The notes below the pieces were generated by a model. It searched no databases. It saw only the letters and a list, made by a program, of their open reading frames with translations, and was not told the DNA's origin. This document shows positions 479 to 10,713 of a DNA stretch of 59,101 nucleotides, piece by piece. The position numbers and the translations under genes were made by a program. The stretch's first letter is position 1, and every line of letters starts with the position of its first letter. Origin of the DNA: Alphaproteobacteria bacterium GM202ARS2 (GTDB lineage Bacteria; Pseudomonadota; Alphaproteobacteria; GM7ARS4); assembly GCA_014323835.1 (NCBI GenBank), contig JACONH010000008.1, positions 1 through 59,101 of the forward strand, in the 5' to 3' direction.

Positions 479-547
479 GATGTGGATGCACGTTAGGGTT
501 TTTGGGGGCTTTTTTGTGTTTTTTATCAAAGAATTGTGTAAAGTGTG

Positions 548-553
548 TATAAT
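548..553 (+). promoter_or_regulatory. Putative -10 box of the pentapeptide gene
   Basis: A perfect TATAAT stands about 30 bases before the first plausible start codon (585). No good -35 is visible; TTATCA at 523-528 is the nearest candidate, 19 bases upstream. Its position argues against the earlier in-frame ATG at 480 as the true start. Confidence 0.45.
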
Positions 554-584
554 ACGAGGGGGGCATAAAACGAGTGATGTTGAT

Positions 585-2276
585 ATGTGCTTGAATATAA
601 AGAAAAAATCAAAGGAAATATGGCAAAATATGAAGGTACACCCGATTCGGTGGGTTGTTGCTGGTATTATTGGTATTATTATATCGCCTGTTATTATTGC
701 GGTGGTGGCGATGGTGGCGTTTTTGTCTGTCGAACTCATCGAGTATACTTTTAGGTTTCTTTTTAATCAGGACATTTGGGAATGGTTGTCAGGGCGAGAT
801 AGCACGGCTAGTGCAGAGGGAAGTAACACAGTCGACACAGGGGTAGATAGTAAAGGTGATTCAGACCATCGTATCAATATTCTTATTGGGCTGGGTAGTG
901 TGTTGGGTATTGCTGTTCTTGCGTGGCGCAATTACTTATTGCAGATAGAGGCGAAAATTCAATTAGAACAGTTTGAGTTGTCTAAGGAACAGGCGAAAAC
1001 AGCAACACAACAAGCAAAAGCAGCTGAGAAACAATCTGATAGGGAAAACAGGGTGCGAGTCAGCAACCAATTGACTCAGTCAATGGAGAGATTGGAACGG
1101 AAGGACAACAACGGCGAGCCATTAAAAGATGCGCGTATTGGTGGTTTGTACGGTTTGGAGTCTTTAGCTGATGAAGATCCTGAGGGTCACTGTGTGCGTG
1201 TGATGCAAAGAATTATTGCTTATATCCGTGAAAACGCGCAAAAAACTGCGGATGATATGCCAACAGAAAACGGCAATGCCGACACGGATGAACAACGTGC
1301 CAGACCTTTGGGTGAGGACGTGAAGGTGGCATTTGCTATTCTTAAAAGATTGTATGACAGTTATGCTAAAATGCCCGAGCAGAGACAGAATATAAAATTG
1401 GTGCGCTTTTTTGATGATGGTGAACCAAGTGATAGAGAATATTTTCAACCAAAAAAGCCTGTGCGTGATGATTTGGATTTTTCTCGTGCAGACTTTCATG
1501 AATTGGATTTTCGCGGTGTTGATTGGATTGATAGACCCTGTTGTGACCGAACAGATTTTCGAGAGGCTAATTTACGGAATGCCAATTTAGCAGGGGCACA
1601 TTTGGAGGAAGCTCTTTTGCAAAAAGTCGATGCCCACGATGTTAATTTATACAAAGTAAATTTGAGAGATGCTCAGCTGTTTGGAGCTTGGTTAAAGAAG
1701 GCCGATTTGCGTGAAGCAAAATTAGAGAGTGCCGAATTGGATGAAGCTGACTTAGAAAAAGCTCAATTAAATGAGGCAAATTTGACGTATGCTTCTCTAA
1801 ATCAGGTAAATTTAGAAGGTGCTAAAATGAATGAAGTGATTTTGGAGGGTGCTGCATTGTGTGCGACAAGTATGTATGGAGCTGAGTTATATGGGGCAAA
1901 TCTAGAAGGGGCTTGGTTGCATGGGGTAGATTTGCAGATGTCTCGGCTCGTTGGAGCTGATTTAAGTAAAGCAATGTTGCAAGGAGCATATTTGTTTAAT
2001 ACAATGTTGCAAGGGGCTGACTTAAAGGACGCACAACTAGATTATGGACTTTGGGAACATGTTGCAACAGAAGTTCAAGATGGAAATGTGCAGAACTTAG
2101 AACGTTTATTGGAGGGAAAAGTAAAGAATCCACTTAATAGAATGAAAATTATTAGTCGGTTTAACTCCAGGGGTAATGAAGGTTTATGGAAGCCAAAATC
2201 AGCACAAATCTTTTGCCATAAGAAATTTCCCCCTCTAAATTATGAGAAAAACCCCGCCATTTTTTTTGCATCCTAA
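585..2276 (+). CDS. Membrane-anchored pentapeptide-repeat protein, frameshifted near its 3' end
   Basis: A 563-residue product from ATG 585; ATG 630 is an alternative. Visible order: two membrane segments (about residues 24-47 and 97-113), a charged coiled-coil-like stretch rich in Gln, Lys and Glu (about 120-170), a conserved segment with the [12 protein letters not shown] motif and a YIRENA motif, then many A(D/N)LXX pentapeptides (about 295-485), which in this family fold into a right-handed beta helix. The function is unknown. The gene is paralogous to the one at 2610. Its frame breaks at a run of eight T (2260-2267): the paralog's C-terminal region continues in the next frame from there, and deleting one T would fuse the two. 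The DNA is visibly more AT-rich than neighbouring genes, which suggests acquisition by transfer. Confidence 0.75.
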
Positions 2277-2613
2277 TAGTGATACCGATGAGATTTGGCA
2301 AGACAGATGGGAGAACATCTACCCTATAGATTACATCAAGCGAGTAGGCAGCTTCAAACAACCTAAGCTATCGTCGCCATACGAAAAGACCCCTATCTAT
2401 GTTATCCGTGGACTTATTAATAGACAATGTCAGAGATTCTTCGCACTCGTTCCTATGAAGGAGTTTCAAAGTGCACATGGTTTGCGCGCTATGATACAAA
2501 ACTTACCAGACTATAAAGATTATATCAGAGAAAAATTATCTAGGGGAGCCTATCTAGAATGGATAGATAAAATCAGGCGTAACCCACTCTCACCATCGAG
2601 TGACGAATCATGA
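2242..2613 (+). pseudogene. Displaced C-terminal part of the upstream pentapeptide gene
   Basis: This 123-codon frame overlaps the end of the preceding gene by 35 bases and is shifted by one base. Its sequence aligns with the C-terminal domain of the paralog at 2610-4136: DTDEIWQDRWENI matches DDDEILWYEEWDEI, and the later NLPDYKDYIREKLS matches NLDDYSKIKERLS. I therefore read it as the true C-terminus of the gene at 585, separated by a frameshift at the T8 run, and not as an independent gene. It could still be made as a separate peptide from ATG 2242, but no ribosome binding site is obvious. Its end overlaps the next start by four bases (ATGA). Confidence 0.7.
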
Positions 2614-4136
2614 CAGCTAAGCAAAAAAAGCCAATTTGGTTCTGGTGGGTTGCTGGTGTTCTTATTATCGTTGGTATTTTTGTTTGTTGGCTTGGGAGCT
2701 TGGATAAAGAGATGCTGGAAAAATTTGAAAGCATAAGTAAGATACTTTTCAATTTGGGAAGTTTTTTAGGTATTTTTGTTGCTGCGTATGGTGCCCGCGC
2801 ATTGTATGTGCGTGCCATAGCCTCACAGAGCCAAGCAGAAACCGCGCGCAAGACACAAGTCAGTGAGCAATTGACTCAAGCCATGAAGATGTTGGCACAG
2901 ATGGGCAGAAAAGACAAAGAGGCACGCATTGGCGGTTTATACAGCTTGGAATCTCTTGCTAACAACGAACCGATGGTTTACGGCGTGCCAGTGATGAAAG
3001 CTATTGTCGCGTATATCCGTGAGAACGCGCAAAAAACCGCGGGTGAAATGCCAGAAAAAAACGGTAATTCTGATGAGGGCACACAGCTCGCTAAGCCTTT
3101 GGGTGAGGATGTCAAGGTAGCATTTGCTGTTTTGAAAAGATTGTATGATAGCCATGCTAGAACGCCGAAGCAAAGAGAAAAAATAAAGCTGATGCGTTTT
3201 TTTGATGATAGTGATTATGAAGGCAGGTCAAAGCATTGGGGTGTAAGATACCCGGTGCGTGATGATTTGGATTTTTCTCGTGTCGATTTCCGTGAATTGG
3301 ATTTTCGCGGTGTTGATTGGGTTGATAGACCCTGTTGTGACCGTACGAAATTTCAAAATACGAATTTATGGAATGCCAACTTCGTAGGGGCACATTTGGA
3401 AGGAGCAATTTTGCAAGGGGCTTATGCTTATAATATCGATATGCGTGGGGCTAATTTATGGCGTGCTCGATTGCAAGGTGTGAATTTGCTTGGGGCGCGG
3501 TTGCAAGGTTCGAGTTTAAGGGAAGCGGATTTACACGGGGCAATTTTAAGCTCTGCAAAGTTGCAGGGAGCGAATTTGCAAGAAGCAAAGTTGCAAGGGG
3601 CGGACTTGGATGCAGCTAAGTTGCAAGGTATAAGCTTATTTATGGCATCCCTATGGCTGAGTATTTGGTATGACGCAAAAATCGATGACAATAGGAGCAA
3701 TTTGAAGAGAACGTTAAAAAAAGCACAACTTCCAAAAACTAAAATAACGGAAGTCCTTGATAGATTCGATAAGCAAAAGAAAAATAAGTCGCTGTGGAAT
3801 CCTGACCCTGATTCAAAACATATTCTTTGTTGTAATGATTTTTCTAAGAGTCTCGACAACCTCAATGCCGATGTAGAGCGACTGAGTGAAGATGATGATG
3901 AAATCTTGTGGTATGAAGAGTGGGATGAAATTTCTAGAAAGATTCCAGAAGGGTGTCGACACCATACTGTCGATGGTCTTACTCTTTTGTATATTAGTAG
4001 GGACTCTCTCCATGGCTCTTTATGTTTCGATGGTTTGTTTAAGGTAATTAAAAACCTAGATGACTATTCAAAAATTAAAGAACGATTGTCTGAAGAGAGC
4101 CTGCATTTTCTAGAAAATCAAGTATCAAGCGCATAG
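2610..4136 (+). CDS. Membrane-anchored pentapeptide-repeat protein, intact paralog
   Basis: A 508-residue protein with the same architecture as the gene before it: two membrane segments (about residues 8-30 and 41-65), a charged linker with SEQLTQAM, the RIGGLYSLESLA and YIRENAQKT motifs, the shared block DDLDFSR...ELDFRGVDW, then A(D/N)LXX pentapeptide repeats (about 215-350, fewer than in the first copy) and an acidic C-terminal domain with EEWDEI. The RIGGLY and YIREN segment is known from other bacterial pentapeptide proteins; its role is unknown. The start ATG overlaps the preceding stop (ATGA), suggesting co-transcription. The similarity to the upstream gene, including long identical stretches, points to tandem duplication. 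AT-rich like its neighbour. Confidence 0.85.
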   Translation: MTAKQKKPIWFWWVAGVLIIVGIFVCWLGSLDKEMLEKFESISKILFNLGSFLGIFVAAYGARALYVRAIASQSQAETARKTQVSEQLTQAMKMLAQMGRKDKEARIGGLYSLESLANNEPMVYGVPVMKAIVAYIRENAQKTAGEMPEKNGNSDEGTQLAKPLGEDVKVAFAVLKRLYDSHARTPKQREKIKLMRFFDDSDYEGRSKHWGVRYPVRDDLDFSRVDFRELDFRGVDWVDRPCCDRTKFQNTNLWNANFVGAHLEGAILQGAYAYNIDMRGANLWRARLQGVNLLGARLQGSSLREADLHGAILSSAKLQGANLQEAKLQGADLDAAKLQGISLFMASLWLSIWYDAKIDDNRSNLKRTLKKAQLPKTKITEVLDRFDKQKKNKSLWNPDPDSKHILCCNDFSKSLDNLNADVERLSEDDDEILWYEEWDEISRKIPEGCRHHTVDGLTLLYISRDSLHGSLCFDGLFKVIKNLDDYSKIKERLSEESLHFLENQVSSA

Positions 4137-4148
4137 AATGAGGATGCA

Positions 4149-4175
4149 GAATCATGACGGCTAAGCAGAAAAGCC
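4149..4175 (+). repeat. Relic of a third pentapeptide-gene start
   Basis: These 27 bases repeat the start region of the gene at 2610 (2605-2632): GAATCATGAC, then GCTAAGC, then AAAAGCC, with two substitutions and one missing A. Here the frame gives MTAKQKSRP and then a stop. It looks like the remnant of a further tandem copy whose body has been lost. Confidence 0.55.
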
Positions 4176-4242
4176 GACCTTGACGCTTTTTTTTCTGGTA
4201 TGATAAAGGCGATAACGCAAGAAGTCTAAAAAAGGTGCTTTA

Positions 4243-4854
4243 ATGATACCCCTTCTCTTAATCATAGCCGTTCTGTTGTTTTGTATCTTTGCTATTCAGT
4301 TAAGCTTCCTATTTTCTAATAAAAAAGCACTAATGATTGGCAAAGTTGTTGGTGCTGTTCTTATTATTGCTTTTTTTATTTCTTGGATGGTTACATCGCT
4401 TGATTTCTATTTCTATTTGGAAGCACCTGAAGCTAGAGTGCCTGGAGTTCTCGGCTCTTTTATTGCTTTGTATATTCTCAGTATTGTTGCCGTTGTTTCA
4501 CTATGTAACTTTATAATAAAGTTTATACTTGCAAGAGAATTAATTAAATTTGAAAGAGCACTGACGATAGGCAAAATTTCTGGTGCTGTTATTATAATTG
4601 CCTTTATTTTTGGATTTTTCTTCGATGTATGGAGTGGCTATTTGAGGGGGGCTACAGGTCTCGGTGCTACTATTATTTTGTCTATTTTTGCTATTGGTGC
4701 TCTTATTCCTCTATTTACTTTTATAGATAAAGAGTTAGGATATGGTCGTCTCGTGTCTGGAGCTCTCGGTGTTGCTATTTTTTGCTTTTTTTTGCTACTT
4801 GTTGCTATTAATCGATCTTTACCTTTGGCTACTATTGTCGAATCTCTGCGTTAA
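4243..4854 (+). CDS. Polytopic membrane protein with a threefold internal repeat, unknown function
   Basis: A 203-residue, almost wholly hydrophobic protein with about six membrane segments. I do not recognise a family. The sequence repeats itself: KALMIGKVVGAVLIIAF (about residue 29) and RALTIGKISGAVIIIAF (about 106) are clearly related, and GYGRLVSGALGVAIF (about 167) is a more diverged third unit. Each unit is preceded by another hydrophobic helix, so the protein is probably three two-helix hairpins. AAAGGTG lies a suitable distance upstream of ATG 4243. It follows the tandem pentapeptide genes on the same strand with the same AT-rich composition, so it probably belongs to the same acquired island. 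Confidence 0.7.
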   Translation: MIPLLLIIAVLLFCIFAIQLSFLFSNKKALMIGKVVGAVLIIAFFISWMVTSLDFYFYLEAPEARVPGVLGSFIALYILSIVAVVSLCNFIIKFILARELIKFERALTIGKISGAVIIIAFIFGFFFDVWSGYLRGATGLGATIILSIFAIGALIPLFTFIDKELGYGRLVSGALGVAIFCFFLLLVAINRSLPLATIVESLR

Positions 4855-4901
4855 GACCTACAAAGGTGCGATTGTATATAGTGCCTAAAGTGAGCCCACT
4901 A

Positions 4902-5858
4902 CTAAAAATTCATCACCAACACCTCATGTGACCTTTTCACATAGCCGTTCGAGCCATTCTCGCTACGGTTCTTCCCAATTCTCGTCTCTCCCTGTCCCAG
5001 CGTATACTGCCATGCCACCTCGACAATGCGGCAATCCTTATACCACGTCCTTACCGCCTCGCAGTCATTATACGACAAAATGAATCGCCCCTTATGGCGC
5101 GCCAAGCCCGCCGCCAACGCCCCATGGTCAAAGCCCCGATGATGCACCGGAAAGTTCCTCTGCGGATAAATCCCCCGAAACATACGACTATCCCCATCCA
5201 AATAATACGGCGGATCACAATACAAAAAATCCTCCCGATGCCGCGCTAACGTCTCCTTAAAATCTCCCTGTGCCACCGCTAACCCTTCACACCGAAACCC
5301 CCGCACCTTGTCCACCAATCGACAAAACCGCTCTCGCTCCTGATAAATCCCCGACATCCACCCCAAAAACCCAGGCCCATAACTCAAGTTATGATTGAAC
5401 CAATAATGCGCGGCGAGCTCCACATCATCATCCATAAGCCTGCTCCCCTCCCAATGCTCCCGCAAACGCGCCTTCACACGTTGATACGTAGCCTTGCCAG
5501 GCTCCCACAGCATCAGCCTATCCGCCAACCCCTCAGGGTCGCGCAACTGCACCCGCCAATAACACGCCAAAATATCAAACACATCATACGCCTGCACCCG
5601 CAAGCCAAGCTCCTGCGCACAAGCAATCTCCACCGCGCCACCCCCCATAAACGGCGACACCAACGACTCCACATCATCAGGGATATGCTCCACCACATGC
5701 CCCACAGCAAGGCTCTTACCACCAGCATACCGCAACGGCAAACCCTGATAACGGCGATAACGATACCGCCCGTTGCTCCGTAAGCGATGCAATAAATCGC
5801 CCCGTGCACTACGTGCGTCATGTGCGTTACGTGCTTCGTGCTGTCCTGTCATAGCCAT
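4902..5858 (-). CDS. DNA adenine methylase, D12 class (orphan)
   Basis: A 318-residue S-adenosylmethionine-dependent N6-adenine DNA methyltransferase of the D12 (Dam / M.DpnII) class. Motifs in order: the N-terminal LRYAGGKS, motif I SPFMGGGAVE (SAM binding, about residue 68), the DPPYY catalytic motif IV (about residue 196), and the later ILSYND. No restriction endonuclease or specificity gene is adjacent, so it is either a solitary regulatory methylase or a remnant of a restriction-modification or phage system. It converges on the membrane protein gene at 4854. ATG 5858 and ATG 5852 are both possible starts; neither has a clear Shine-Dalgarno. The first 20 residues come from a repetitive ACGTGC-rich stretch and may not be part of the protein. 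Confidence 0.85.
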   Translation of the reverse strand: MAMTGQHEARNAHDARSARGDLLHRLRSNGRYRYRRYQGLPLRYAGGKSLAVGHVVEHIPDDVESLVSPFMGGGAVEIACAQELGLRVQAYDVFDILACYWRVQLRDPEGLADRLMLWEPGKATYQRVKARLREHWEGSRLMDDDVELAAHYWFNHNLSYGPGFLGWMSGIYQERERFCRLVDKVRGFRCEGLAVAQGDFKETLARHREDFLYCDPPYYLDGDSRMFRGIYPQRNFPVHHRGFDHGALAAGLARHKGRFILSYNDCEAVRTWYKDCRIVEVAWQYTLGQGETRIGKNRSENGSNGYVKRSHEVLVMNF

Positions 5859-5959
5859 AAACGCAGTCTATCATGGTGTGGCAGATGTTTCTTGTTTTCT
5901 TGTCGCACCTATGCCATAGTGCGTTTTTCGTGGGGGGTATAAGTTTACGTATAGGGACG

Positions 5960-6313
5960 ATGGACAAGAAAATAGTGAAAATTCCGTTGACGGACGAGTC
6001 GCTGGTGTCTCGCCGTGTCCGCGTTGAGGGTGCGTTGCGTTTGATTATCCGTGACCCCGACTGGGTGTTGAGCAAAACCGTGCCGGTCAGTTTCAAGGGC
6101 TTGCGTCCGCAAGACAAAGTATCCGTCAAAGTCTCGGCGCAGTTATGGGAGCACGCCAAGAAAGCCCTAGAAAGCACCGCGCCCCTAGAAACGCCGCGGG
6201 TGGGTTGTCGGGTTGCTGGCATCTTGCGCCGTCTCAAGATGGACGAGCGGGAATGGAACGAGCCCTATACGCCGTCTTCTCTGCCGTTGCTCCGTGCCAT
6301 GCACAAAGACTAA
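5960..6313 (+). CDS. Small hydrophilic protein of unknown function
   Basis: A 117-residue protein beginning MDKKIVKIPLTDESL. I do not recognise it. It has no signal peptide or membrane segment and is moderately basic. The central part (residues 40-75) alternates charged and hydrophobic residues, which suggests a small folded domain. An in-frame ATG exists at 5873, but that extension is hydrophobic and low quality, whereas AGGGA stands 4 bases before ATG 5960, so the shorter form is preferred. It lies between the divergent methylase and the RluA-type gene, 33 bases before the latter, and may be co-transcribed with it. Confidence 0.6.
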   Translation: MDKKIVKIPLTDESLVSRRVRVEGALRLIIRDPDWVLSKTVPVSFKGLRPQDKVSVKVSAQLWEHAKKALESTAPLETPRVGCRVAGILRRLKMDEREWNEPYTPSSLPLLRAMHKD

Positions 6314-8594: not shown

Positions 8595-8604
8595 GAGATG
8601 ATTG

Positions 8605-10713
8605 ATGTTTAAGGTTACCAGTAAGACATTCACATGGGGTGGGGCGGAACTTTCTTTTGAGAGCGGCAGATTGGCTCGGCAGGCTGATGGCGCGGTGCTG
8701 TCGAGAGTAGGCGATACGTGCGTGTTCGCCACGGTGGTTGCCGAGAAAACACCGAAGGTGGGCGTGGACTTTTTGCCTCTGTCGGTGAATTACATGGAGC
8801 GGAGCTACGCAGCGGGCAAAGTGCCGGGCGGATTCTTTAAGAGAGAAGGACGACCGACAGAACGCGAAACGCTGATTTCACGGCTGATTGACCGACCGCT
8901 GCGACCAACGTTCCCGAATGGCTATCGACTGGAGACGCAGATTATCTGTAAGGCGATTAGTCACGACCAAGAAAACGACTCGGATGTGTTGGCGATTAAC
9001 GCGGCGTCGTGTGCGTTGGCGGTGTCGGGACTGCCGTGTGGTGATGAGATTGTCGCTGCTGCTAAGGTGGGTTACATTGATGGGCAATTTGTTTTGAATC
9101 CGAAGATTGAGGCGATGGCTCAATCGCAGCTGGAATTGGTGGTAGCGGGCACACGAGAAGGTGTGCTGATGGTGGAATCACAAGCCGACCAGTTGTCGGA
9201 GCAAATCATGTTGGATGCCGTCATGTTTGGACACGAGCAGATGCAGCAGGTGATTGATGTCATCGAGTCTATGGCAAAAGAATGTGGCAAGCCGAAACGG
9301 CGTTTAGAACCGCCGCCGTCTCATGCTGAGGCATGGAAGACGGAATTGCATGGGATTGTTAAGGACGACCTTGTGGCAGCGTATAAGGAGCAAGACAAGC
9401 AGACGCGGGTGCAGGCGTTGGATGCGATGCGCACCAAGGGGTTGGAGGCACTGAGTGAGAAGCATCCGGAGATGAACGAGGATAGTGCTGCGTTGGGTTT
9501 GGCGAAGGGTTTGTTGAAGGATATTGAGAAGCATGAAGTGCGTTCGCGTATTCTTAAAGACAGTGCGCGCATCGATGGACGTAAGAAGAATGATGTCAGA
9601 CAGATTGATTGTCAGGTGAATGTTTTGCCGCGCACGCATGGTTCGGCAGTTTTCACTCGTGGCGAGACGCAGGCGTTGGTTGTGACGACGTTGGGCTCGA
9701 CGACGGATGAGCAAGTTGTGGATGGTATTATTGGTGACCAGCGTGAGTCGTTTATGTTGCACTATAACTTTCCGCCGTATTCTGTGGGAGAAGTGGGGCG
9801 GGTTGGTTTCACGGGACGGCGAGAGATTGGTCATGGCAAGTTGGCTTGGCGTGCTTTGAAGGCGGTGTTGCCGACAAAGGAGGCTTTTCCGTATACGTTG
9901 CGGGTTGTTTCTGAGATTACCGAGTCGAATGGCTCGAGCTCTATGGCGACGGTGTGTGGGGCGTGTTTGTCGATGTTGGATGCGGGTGTGCCTTTGAAGG
10001 AGTCGGTGGCGGGTATTGCTATGGGGCTGATTAAGGAGGGTGATCAATTTATCGTGCTGTCCGATATTCTTGGCGATGAGGATCATTTGGGCGATATGGA
10101 CTTTAAGGTGGCGGGTTCGCAGGCGGGTATTACGTCTTTGCAGATGGACTTGAAGATTACGAGTATCAACAAGGACATTATGCAGGAAGCGTTACAGCAA
10201 GCTTTGGAGGGGCGCTTGCATATTCTTAAGGAGATGGCTCAGGTGATGCCGCAGACTCGTTCGAATCTCAGTGAGCATGCTCCTAAGATTGAGACCATTC
10301 AGGTGCCGGTGGATAAAATTCGCGATGTTATTGGTGTTGGTGGCAAAGTCATACGGGAGATTTGTCAGGTGTCGGGGGCGAAAGTGGACATCGATGATAG
10401 TGGTCTTGTTAAGGTATCGGCGGTGGGCAGAGAAAGCATGGACAAGGCTTTATCGATGATTAAGGACATTACGGCAGAGCCTGAGATTGGTCATATTTAT
10501 CGGGGCAAAGTTGTTAAGTGCGTGGACTTTGGTGCTTTTGTTAATTTTATGAGTGGGCGTGATGGGCTTGTGCATATTAGCGAGTTGGTGCCTGAGCGTG
10601 TGCGGCGTGTGACGGACATTGTTAACGAAGGCGATGAAGTCAACGTTAAGGTGCTCGACATCGATGAGCGTGGACGTGTGCGGCTCAGTATGAAACAGGC
10701 TCAACAGCAATGA
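8605..10713 (+). CDS. pnp: Polyribonucleotide nucleotidyltransferase (PNPase)
   Basis: A 702-residue 3'-5' phosphorolytic exoribonuclease and degradosome component. Two RNase PH-like domains (about residues 10-230 and 310-540), with the first carrying NYMERSYAAGKVPGGFFKRE and the second EKVCG-like active-site surroundings, are followed by a KH domain (DVIGVGGKVIREI, about 565) and an S1 domain (GHIYRGKVVKCVDFGAFV, about 630). Length matches the family. ATG 8605 is chosen over the TTG one codon earlier because AGGAG ends 7 bases before it. Last gene of the rbfA-truB-rpsO-pnp run. Confidence 0.97.
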   Translation: MFKVTSKTFTWGGAELSFESGRLARQADGAVLSRVGDTCVFATVVAEKTPKVGVDFLPLSVNYMERSYAAGKVPGGFFKREGRPTERETLISRLIDRPLRPTFPNGYRLETQIICKAISHDQENDSDVLAINAASCALAVSGLPCGDEIVAAAKVGYIDGQFVLNPKIEAMAQSQLELVVAGTREGVLMVESQADQLSEQIMLDAVMFGHEQMQQVIDVIESMAKECGKPKRRLEPPPSHAEAWKTELHGIVKDDLVAAYKEQDKQTRVQALDAMRTKGLEALSEKHPEMNEDSAALGLAKGLLKDIEKHEVRSRILKDSARIDGRKKNDVRQIDCQVNVLPRTHGSAVFTRGETQALVVTTLGSTTDEQVVDGIIGDQRESFMLHYNFPPYSVGEVGRVGFTGRREIGHGKLAWRALKAVLPTKEAFPYTLRVVSEITESNGSSSMATVCGACLSMLDAGVPLKESVAGIAMGLIKEGDQFIVLSDILGDEDHLGDMDFKVAGSQAGITSLQMDLKITSINKDIMQEALQQALEGRLHILKEMAQVMPQTRSNLSEHAPKIETIQVPVDKIRDVIGVGGKVIREICQVSGAKVDIDDSGLVKVSAVGRESMDKALSMIKDITAEPEIGHIYRGKVVKCVDFGAFVNFMSGRDGLVHISELVPERVRRVTDIVNEGDEVNVKVLDIDERGRVRLSMKQAQQQ

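Follow-up and report, generated by a model that had tools for sequence, protein, structure and literature searches.

Tandem pentapeptide-repeat genes beside rpmH belong to a predicted membrane-anchored family expanded in one alphaproteobacterial genome

Two tandem pentapeptide-repeat genes (A and B) and a small membrane-protein gene (M) lie on the plus strand in Alphaproteobacteria bacterium GM202ARS2, flanked by rpmH (about 254-390) on one side and by an adenine methylase gene (4902-5858) on the other, both of which run on the minus strand. The locus raises the question of whether these genes make up one system and what they might do. The original prediction had read them as a mobile, membrane-located system with a possible link to defence. 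We analysed the window, that is, the whole 59,101-nt stretch of contig JACONH010000008.1 (contig C8 below), together with the rest of the genome (1.83 Mb in 49 contigs, 90.5% complete) and with other genomes. The features are collected in Table 1.

Table 1. Features of the pentapeptide locus and of the further copies in the genome. Coordinates are those of the window unless a contig is named.
Feature	Coordinates	Strand	Evidence
Gene A, first frame: two TM helices, coiled coil, RIGGLY..YIREN module, pentapeptide beta-helix; frame ends early	585 or 630..2276	+	ORF, Pfam, paralog alignment, hydropathy
A: two predicted membrane helices (about 666-722, 870-926)	666..926	+	hydropathy
A: conserved helical module	1128..1250	+	five-copy and family alignments
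A: pentapeptide-repeat beta-helix	1470..2060	+	Pfam PF00805, E 9e-39
A: T8 tract, site of frame change	2260..2267	+	frame comparison
A: C-terminal domain, out of frame with the rest of A and no gene of its own	2242..2613	+	resemblance to the C-terminal domains of B, C, D and E
24-nt repeat, head of B	2605..2628	+	DNA repeat comparison
Gene B, 508 aa, intact	2610..4136	+	ORF, Pfam, alignment
B: two predicted membrane helices (residues 13-31, 41-59)	2646..2786	+	hydropathy; helices also in AF2 model
B: conserved helical module	2922..3032	+	five-copy and family alignments
B: pentapeptide-repeat beta-helix (residues 247-359)	3348..3686	+	Pfam, AF2 model, Foldseek
B: C-terminal domain (LWxPxSxxIxCxxxF...), seen only in this genome's five copies	3687..4133	+	sequence similarity
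Second copy of 24-nt repeat, 92% identical, downstream of B; stop codon soon after	4149..4172	+	DNA repeat comparison
Gene M: six predicted membrane helices, hairpins 1 and 2 repeated, orphan; tied to A/B by position alone	4243..4854	+	hydropathy, shuffle test, homolog searches
Copy C, downstream of dapD	C23:3893-5323		genome search
Copy D, amid metabolic genes	C12:165962-167225		genome search
Copy E, amid metabolic genes, 12 kb from D	C12 about 178,150-179,473	minus	genome search

As originally described, A and B proved to be tandem paralogs: their N-terminal parts are 52% identical, and each encodes two predicted membrane helices, a coiled coil, a RIGGLY/YIREN segment and a pentapeptide beta-helix. 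Both score far above the PF00805 cut-off of 20.2 bits (A, 131.1 bits; B, 93.9 bits, E 3.8e-27) and share with that superfamily the right-handed quadrilateral beta-helix and A(D/N)LXX-like repeats. Most characterised members are soluble, whereas A and B add a membrane anchor, a helical module and a C-terminal domain. The module reads ARIGGLY.LESLA...v in A and B, followed later by LGEDVK.AF..LKRLYDS. The number of pentapeptides varies from copy to copy, as had been claimed, the longest runs being about 28 units in A, about 17 in B and about 23 in a further copy, C, described below. One stretch of A (1451-1622) is 84% identical to its counterpart in B (3245-3416), other stretches of the pair being mostly less alike; it may reflect gene conversion.

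The proposed membrane location was supported by the sequence, with two hydrophobic helices and a positive-inside pattern of charges around them. These helix-flanking charges favour an N-in/C-in topology, in which A and B would be anchored by their two N-terminal helices with both ends in the cytoplasm. An AF2 model of B, built from three sequences and of low confidence (mean pLDDT 47.6), reproduced the succession of helices, long coil and beta-helix: it opened with a pair of long helices, formed a second helical pair at RIGGLY..YIREN and a beta-helix at residues 247-359, and closed with a mixed C-terminal domain. Repeated short strands in residues 247-359 of this low-confidence model, together with Foldseek, assigned the region to the quadrilateral right-handed beta-helices. 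Searching with the B model, Foldseek returned solely pentapeptide proteins, including the HetL, MfpA and Np275 crystal structures; among solved structures the pentapeptides alone found a match, and no relative appeared for the module, the C-terminal domain or M. By fold and architecture, A and B belong to a known kind of pentapeptide protein.

Two groups of pentapeptide proteins with known roles were weighed. Both Foldseek and HMM searches matched the beta-helix to MfpA, Qnr and AlbG, and A and B might accordingly act as membrane-held, Qnr/MfpA-like DNA mimics that protect topoisomerase. An acidic beta-helix is present in A (net charge -17) and in copy C (-11), but those of B (-3) and copy D (-2) are almost neutral. 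The scores are far under the curated NCBIfam cut-offs (44.4 against 240 bits for Qnr, 44.6 against 360 bits for MfpA), the likeness is one of fold only, A and B carry extra domains and a charge that is not consistently acidic, and anchoring at the membrane would keep such a protein off the nucleoid; we regard a topoisomerase protector as highly improbable. A parallel in gross architecture is HglK of Nostoc/Anabaena, a 727-aa protein needed for heterocyst glycolipid localisation, which has four membrane helices at its N-terminus followed by 36 pentapeptide repeats (PMC8145042). By analogy, A and B could be envelope or lipid-localisation factors. This seems unlikely: in place of the four helices and roughly 36 pentapeptides of HglK they have two helices and shorter runs, the resemblance lies in the succession of N-terminal helices and a long pentapeptide region, and expansion and decay within one genome look accessory, not structural.

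Possible signs of decay were found in A itself. The island had been thought to begin at 480, where the longest ORF of A opens; this start is unlikely, as in-frame ATGs at 585 and 630 yield N-termini like those of the paralogs. In the assembly the A frame stops at 2276, and the C-terminal domain resumes in ORF 2242-2613, past the T8 tract. This frame break had been overlooked, as had the C-terminal domain, which is common to the copies. The relic of a third paralog that had been reported after B is real, being a copy of the head of B, and slight in extent, with a length of 24 nt. The two copies of this repeat bracket B, and the downstream one is possibly the remnant of a lost third tandem copy.

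The genome carries five diverged copies in all, A and B in tandem and C, D and E elsewhere, the last three having escaped the original prediction. B, C and D are intact and the other two of the five are frame-broken, with the break of E located at an A7 tract in the pentapeptide region. The T8 tract is the sole A/T run of at least 7 in A, the A7 tract likewise in E, and both frame breaks fall there; either could be an assembly error of the metagenome-assembled genome (MAG). In a phylogenetic tree the five copies form a single clade (92/93), within which D and E are sisters (99/95), and a gammaproteobacterial sequence, L044, comes next (95/89). All five copies appear to descend by duplication from one founder. 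On contig C23, copy C follows an apparent rnpA end, yidD, yidC, argB and dapD, and the window opens with an apparent rnpA start and rpmH. Judging from this split rnpA, and without overlap between the contigs, A/B/M and copy C probably flank opposite sides of a single rpmH-to-dapD block.

Given two frame-broken copies out of five and the 24-nt head relic downstream of B, the set might be functionless debris, left by the duplication of a mobile gene, in decay and now devoid of any role. Three copies are intact, however, and the five-copy N-terminal alignment retains 37 invariant columns in the module region at an inter-copy DNA identity of mostly 50-70%, which suggests selection, past or present. 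We hold the debris reading to be unlikely.

We then asked how far the family extends, using a profile built from the five N-terminal parts of this genome's copies. Relatives of the module turned up in 20 genomes out of 385 from the class and in 8 out of 398 from the phylum, and none in the sole same-family genome compared, G001 (97% complete). Others are encoded on the Streptomyces plasmids NZ_CP108386 and NZ_CP107787 and on Acaryochloris pREC4, annotated merely as 'pentapeptide repeat-containing protein'. The closest, L044, lies at the end of a 7-kb contig (JABABF010000169) of a gammaproteobacterial MAG, with 31% identity and LGEDVK in common. Upstream of it (L044 5900-6470) are broken frames resembling a P-loop ATPase fragment (GLRGIGKTALLELL). 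Jointly aligned, some 40 relatives drawn from Pseudomonadota, Acaryochloris and Streptomyces gave the consensus eRf.KAve.LG...l.vR.GGIYaLerLA.d.P....v.vm.lLcAf.Re. By alignment and HMM, A and B show the full family pattern of hydrophobic helices, coiled coil and RxGG[IL]YxLExLA...vM..lxAfiRE ahead of the pentapeptides, and the relatives, the gammaproteobacterial one included, have the same module and order of parts. They differ in having no M neighbour and in the C-terminal domain, which was not found outside this genome's five copies, L044 ending before that region. The module family seems to be nameless in Pfam and NCBIfam, and we found no paper naming this membrane-anchored subfamily. As traced by its sequences, the A/B family is widespread yet patchy, and unnamed. 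No module relative occurred in 50,697 phage records or in IMG/VR, and a phage origin of the family was rejected.

Expansion is not peculiar to this genome: G035 has five entries that cluster in the tree (91/90), two of them in tandem, and a tandem pair sits on the Streptomyces plasmid of L119. In three relatives, L078 (G029), L049 (G012) and L051 (G228), module and pentapeptides are two adjacent genes, encoding a module of 112-146 aa and a pentapeptide protein of 133-205 aa with 16-18 units; these two-gene forms make up one well-supported tree group (97/91). On at least one occasion, then, module and rod were joined or separated, and their occurrence as separate adjacent genes suggests that they act jointly as a unit. 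A bolder interpretation, which we consider improbable, would make the RxGGIYALErLA module an undescribed cross-phylum family of membrane platforms, carrying interchangeable pentapeptide rods in one- or two-gene form and growing time and again, within individual genomes, into tandem, homopolymer-switched sets, as a diversifying recognition or conflict system.

The lower GC content claimed for the island was borne out by third codon positions. GC3 is 0.36 in A, 0.39 in B and 0.24 in M, against 0.581 +/- 0.042 (minimum 0.48) in the 45 other window ORFs of at least 150 aa, and the three genes are strong outliers in composition among their neighbours. Relatives of the module family are often GC-poorer than their own surroundings, which makes composition a weaker sign of recent transfer than it appears; the low GC is partly a family habit. 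Mobility, as originally proposed, gains indirect support from the outlying composition, the patchy distribution, the absence from G001, the gammaproteobacterial closest relative and the relatives on plasmids; no integrase, transposon or attachment site was found beside A, B and M. In the 36 kb read from G001, none of the window's flanking genes was in common, and the search yielded no syntenic relative of the rpmH site. Compared with window positions 8602-10713, G001 gave no full-length polynucleotide phosphorylase (PNPase), just a match to its C-terminal RNA-binding (S1-like) end. Counts of promoters and terminators equalled those in shuffled sequence.

The place of M in such a system was examined separately. 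Of its three hairpins, said to be repeats of one another, hairpins 1 and 2 clearly are (none of 1000 shuffles as good; DNA 80% identical over 59 nt), whereas hairpin 3 is marginal, with about 5% of shuffles as good. A single-sequence AF2 model contained helices only (pLDDT 58). Searches for homologs of M came up empty in Pfam, NCBIfam, PADLOC, PHROGs and the PDB, and likewise in the 385 class genomes, in plasmids and in viral contigs. Its own genome contains the gene just once, which means that M accompanies none of C, D and E. The claim that the pentapeptide genes and M form one system, which called for their co-occurrence elsewhere, was thus not supported: no such co-occurrence was found. 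With M an orphan in all searches, a conserved A/B/M operon was rejected.

The suggested link to defence had relied on the solitary methylase. This Dam-like enzyme is the sole real PADLOC match in the set of A, B, M and methylase (MTase_II, 1.8e-108); A, M and the A fragment 2242-2613 had no match and B a negligible one (0.034). The methylase gene is native in composition and runs on the strand opposite to A/B/M, and its product shares about 43% identity with the Dam-like methylases that Synechococcus phages encode. G001 lacks it, and it is almost absent from 40 relatives. On these grounds the link found no support, and a known defence system was rejected. A 146-aa gene divergent from the methylase (5873-6313, plus strand) had no above-chance match in Pfam, NCBIfam, PADLOC or PHROGs.

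An anti-phage or other conflict system was considered as well, in which anchored pentapeptide proteins would be effectors or immunity factors, M a membrane pore or partner and the methylase a self-marking gene. The genes are patchy, multicopy, tandem and rich in AT, their repeat number varies and two of their frames are broken, traits that are frequent in conflict genes. A zeta-toxin family gene lies near the tandem pair on the Streptomyces plasmid, and pentapeptide repeats are known as scaffolding domains of predicted conflict systems (PMC7159879). Set against this are the lack of any worthwhile PADLOC match to A, B or M, the failure of M to attend any other copy, a methylase of native composition on the opposite strand and nearest to cyanophage Dam, and the neighbourhoods of the listed relatives, which by eye are metabolic or unremarkable. 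Such a conflict system appears improbable.

Taken together, the best explanation, to which we assign a probability of about 0.5, is that A and B belong to a five-copy, lineage-specific expansion of a membrane-anchored pentapeptide family with an accessory scaffold role. The identification as an expanded, anchored pentapeptide family is very probable; for the scaffold role, which is argued from the kind of fold and is the reading of a beta-helix that commits to least, we see roughly even chances. In the proposed model, the two N-terminal helices would hold the protein in the inner membrane with N and C ends in the cytoplasm, and the coiled coil and helical module (RxGGIYaLErLA..vM..L.AFiRE) would probably mediate oligomerisation or the binding of a constant partner. 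The beta-helix of pentapeptides, of copy-specific length and capped by the genome-specific C-terminal domain, would jut into the cytoplasm and act there as a scaffold or a binding rod. The whole would serve as a membrane-tethered scaffold, accessory and dispensable, by which a cytoplasmic partner is held or blocked at the membrane. Patchiness and decay suggest that A-E are dispensable. The founder was presumably acquired from outside and then duplicated, and some copies may now be decaying through homopolymer frame breaks.

A second feature of the locus concerns parS-like (ParB-site) palindromes. Two of them (185-200 and 228-243) adjoin rpmH. Across the 1.83 Mb of the genome, TGTTTCACGTGAAACA occurs 78 times as a perfect site and 136 times if up to one mismatch is allowed, against 0 for the reversed control. 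By comparison, 58 other class genomes had 0-9 perfect sites each, and the same-family genome G001 had 3, located at gidA-parA-parB. The sites of the present genome occur in clusters of 2-8, often with a spacing of about 35 bp, spread over numerous contigs and frequently near their ends (for example G000:C5:85888-86088, with six copies 37 bp apart, C1:383-742 and C7:10967-11250), and the centre variants CACGAG, CGCGCG and CTCGTG recur inside the arrays. No parS site was present in the stretches read around C, D and E, which leaves no visible link between parS and the pentapeptide genes. This amplification may represent a centromere dispersed over the genome, a global regulator built on ParB or a repeat element resembling parS, and it looks more surprising than the pentapeptide family.

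For the window alone, the find is a modest one, an expanded and partly decaying accessory family. To our knowledge, very few pentapeptide-repeat proteins have a known biochemical function. Their sequences number nearly 39,000 (PMC8145042). The constant membrane module, the two-gene forms and the lineage expansions are handles on what the anchored ones do, namely through which partner the module binds and whether module and rod form a complex.
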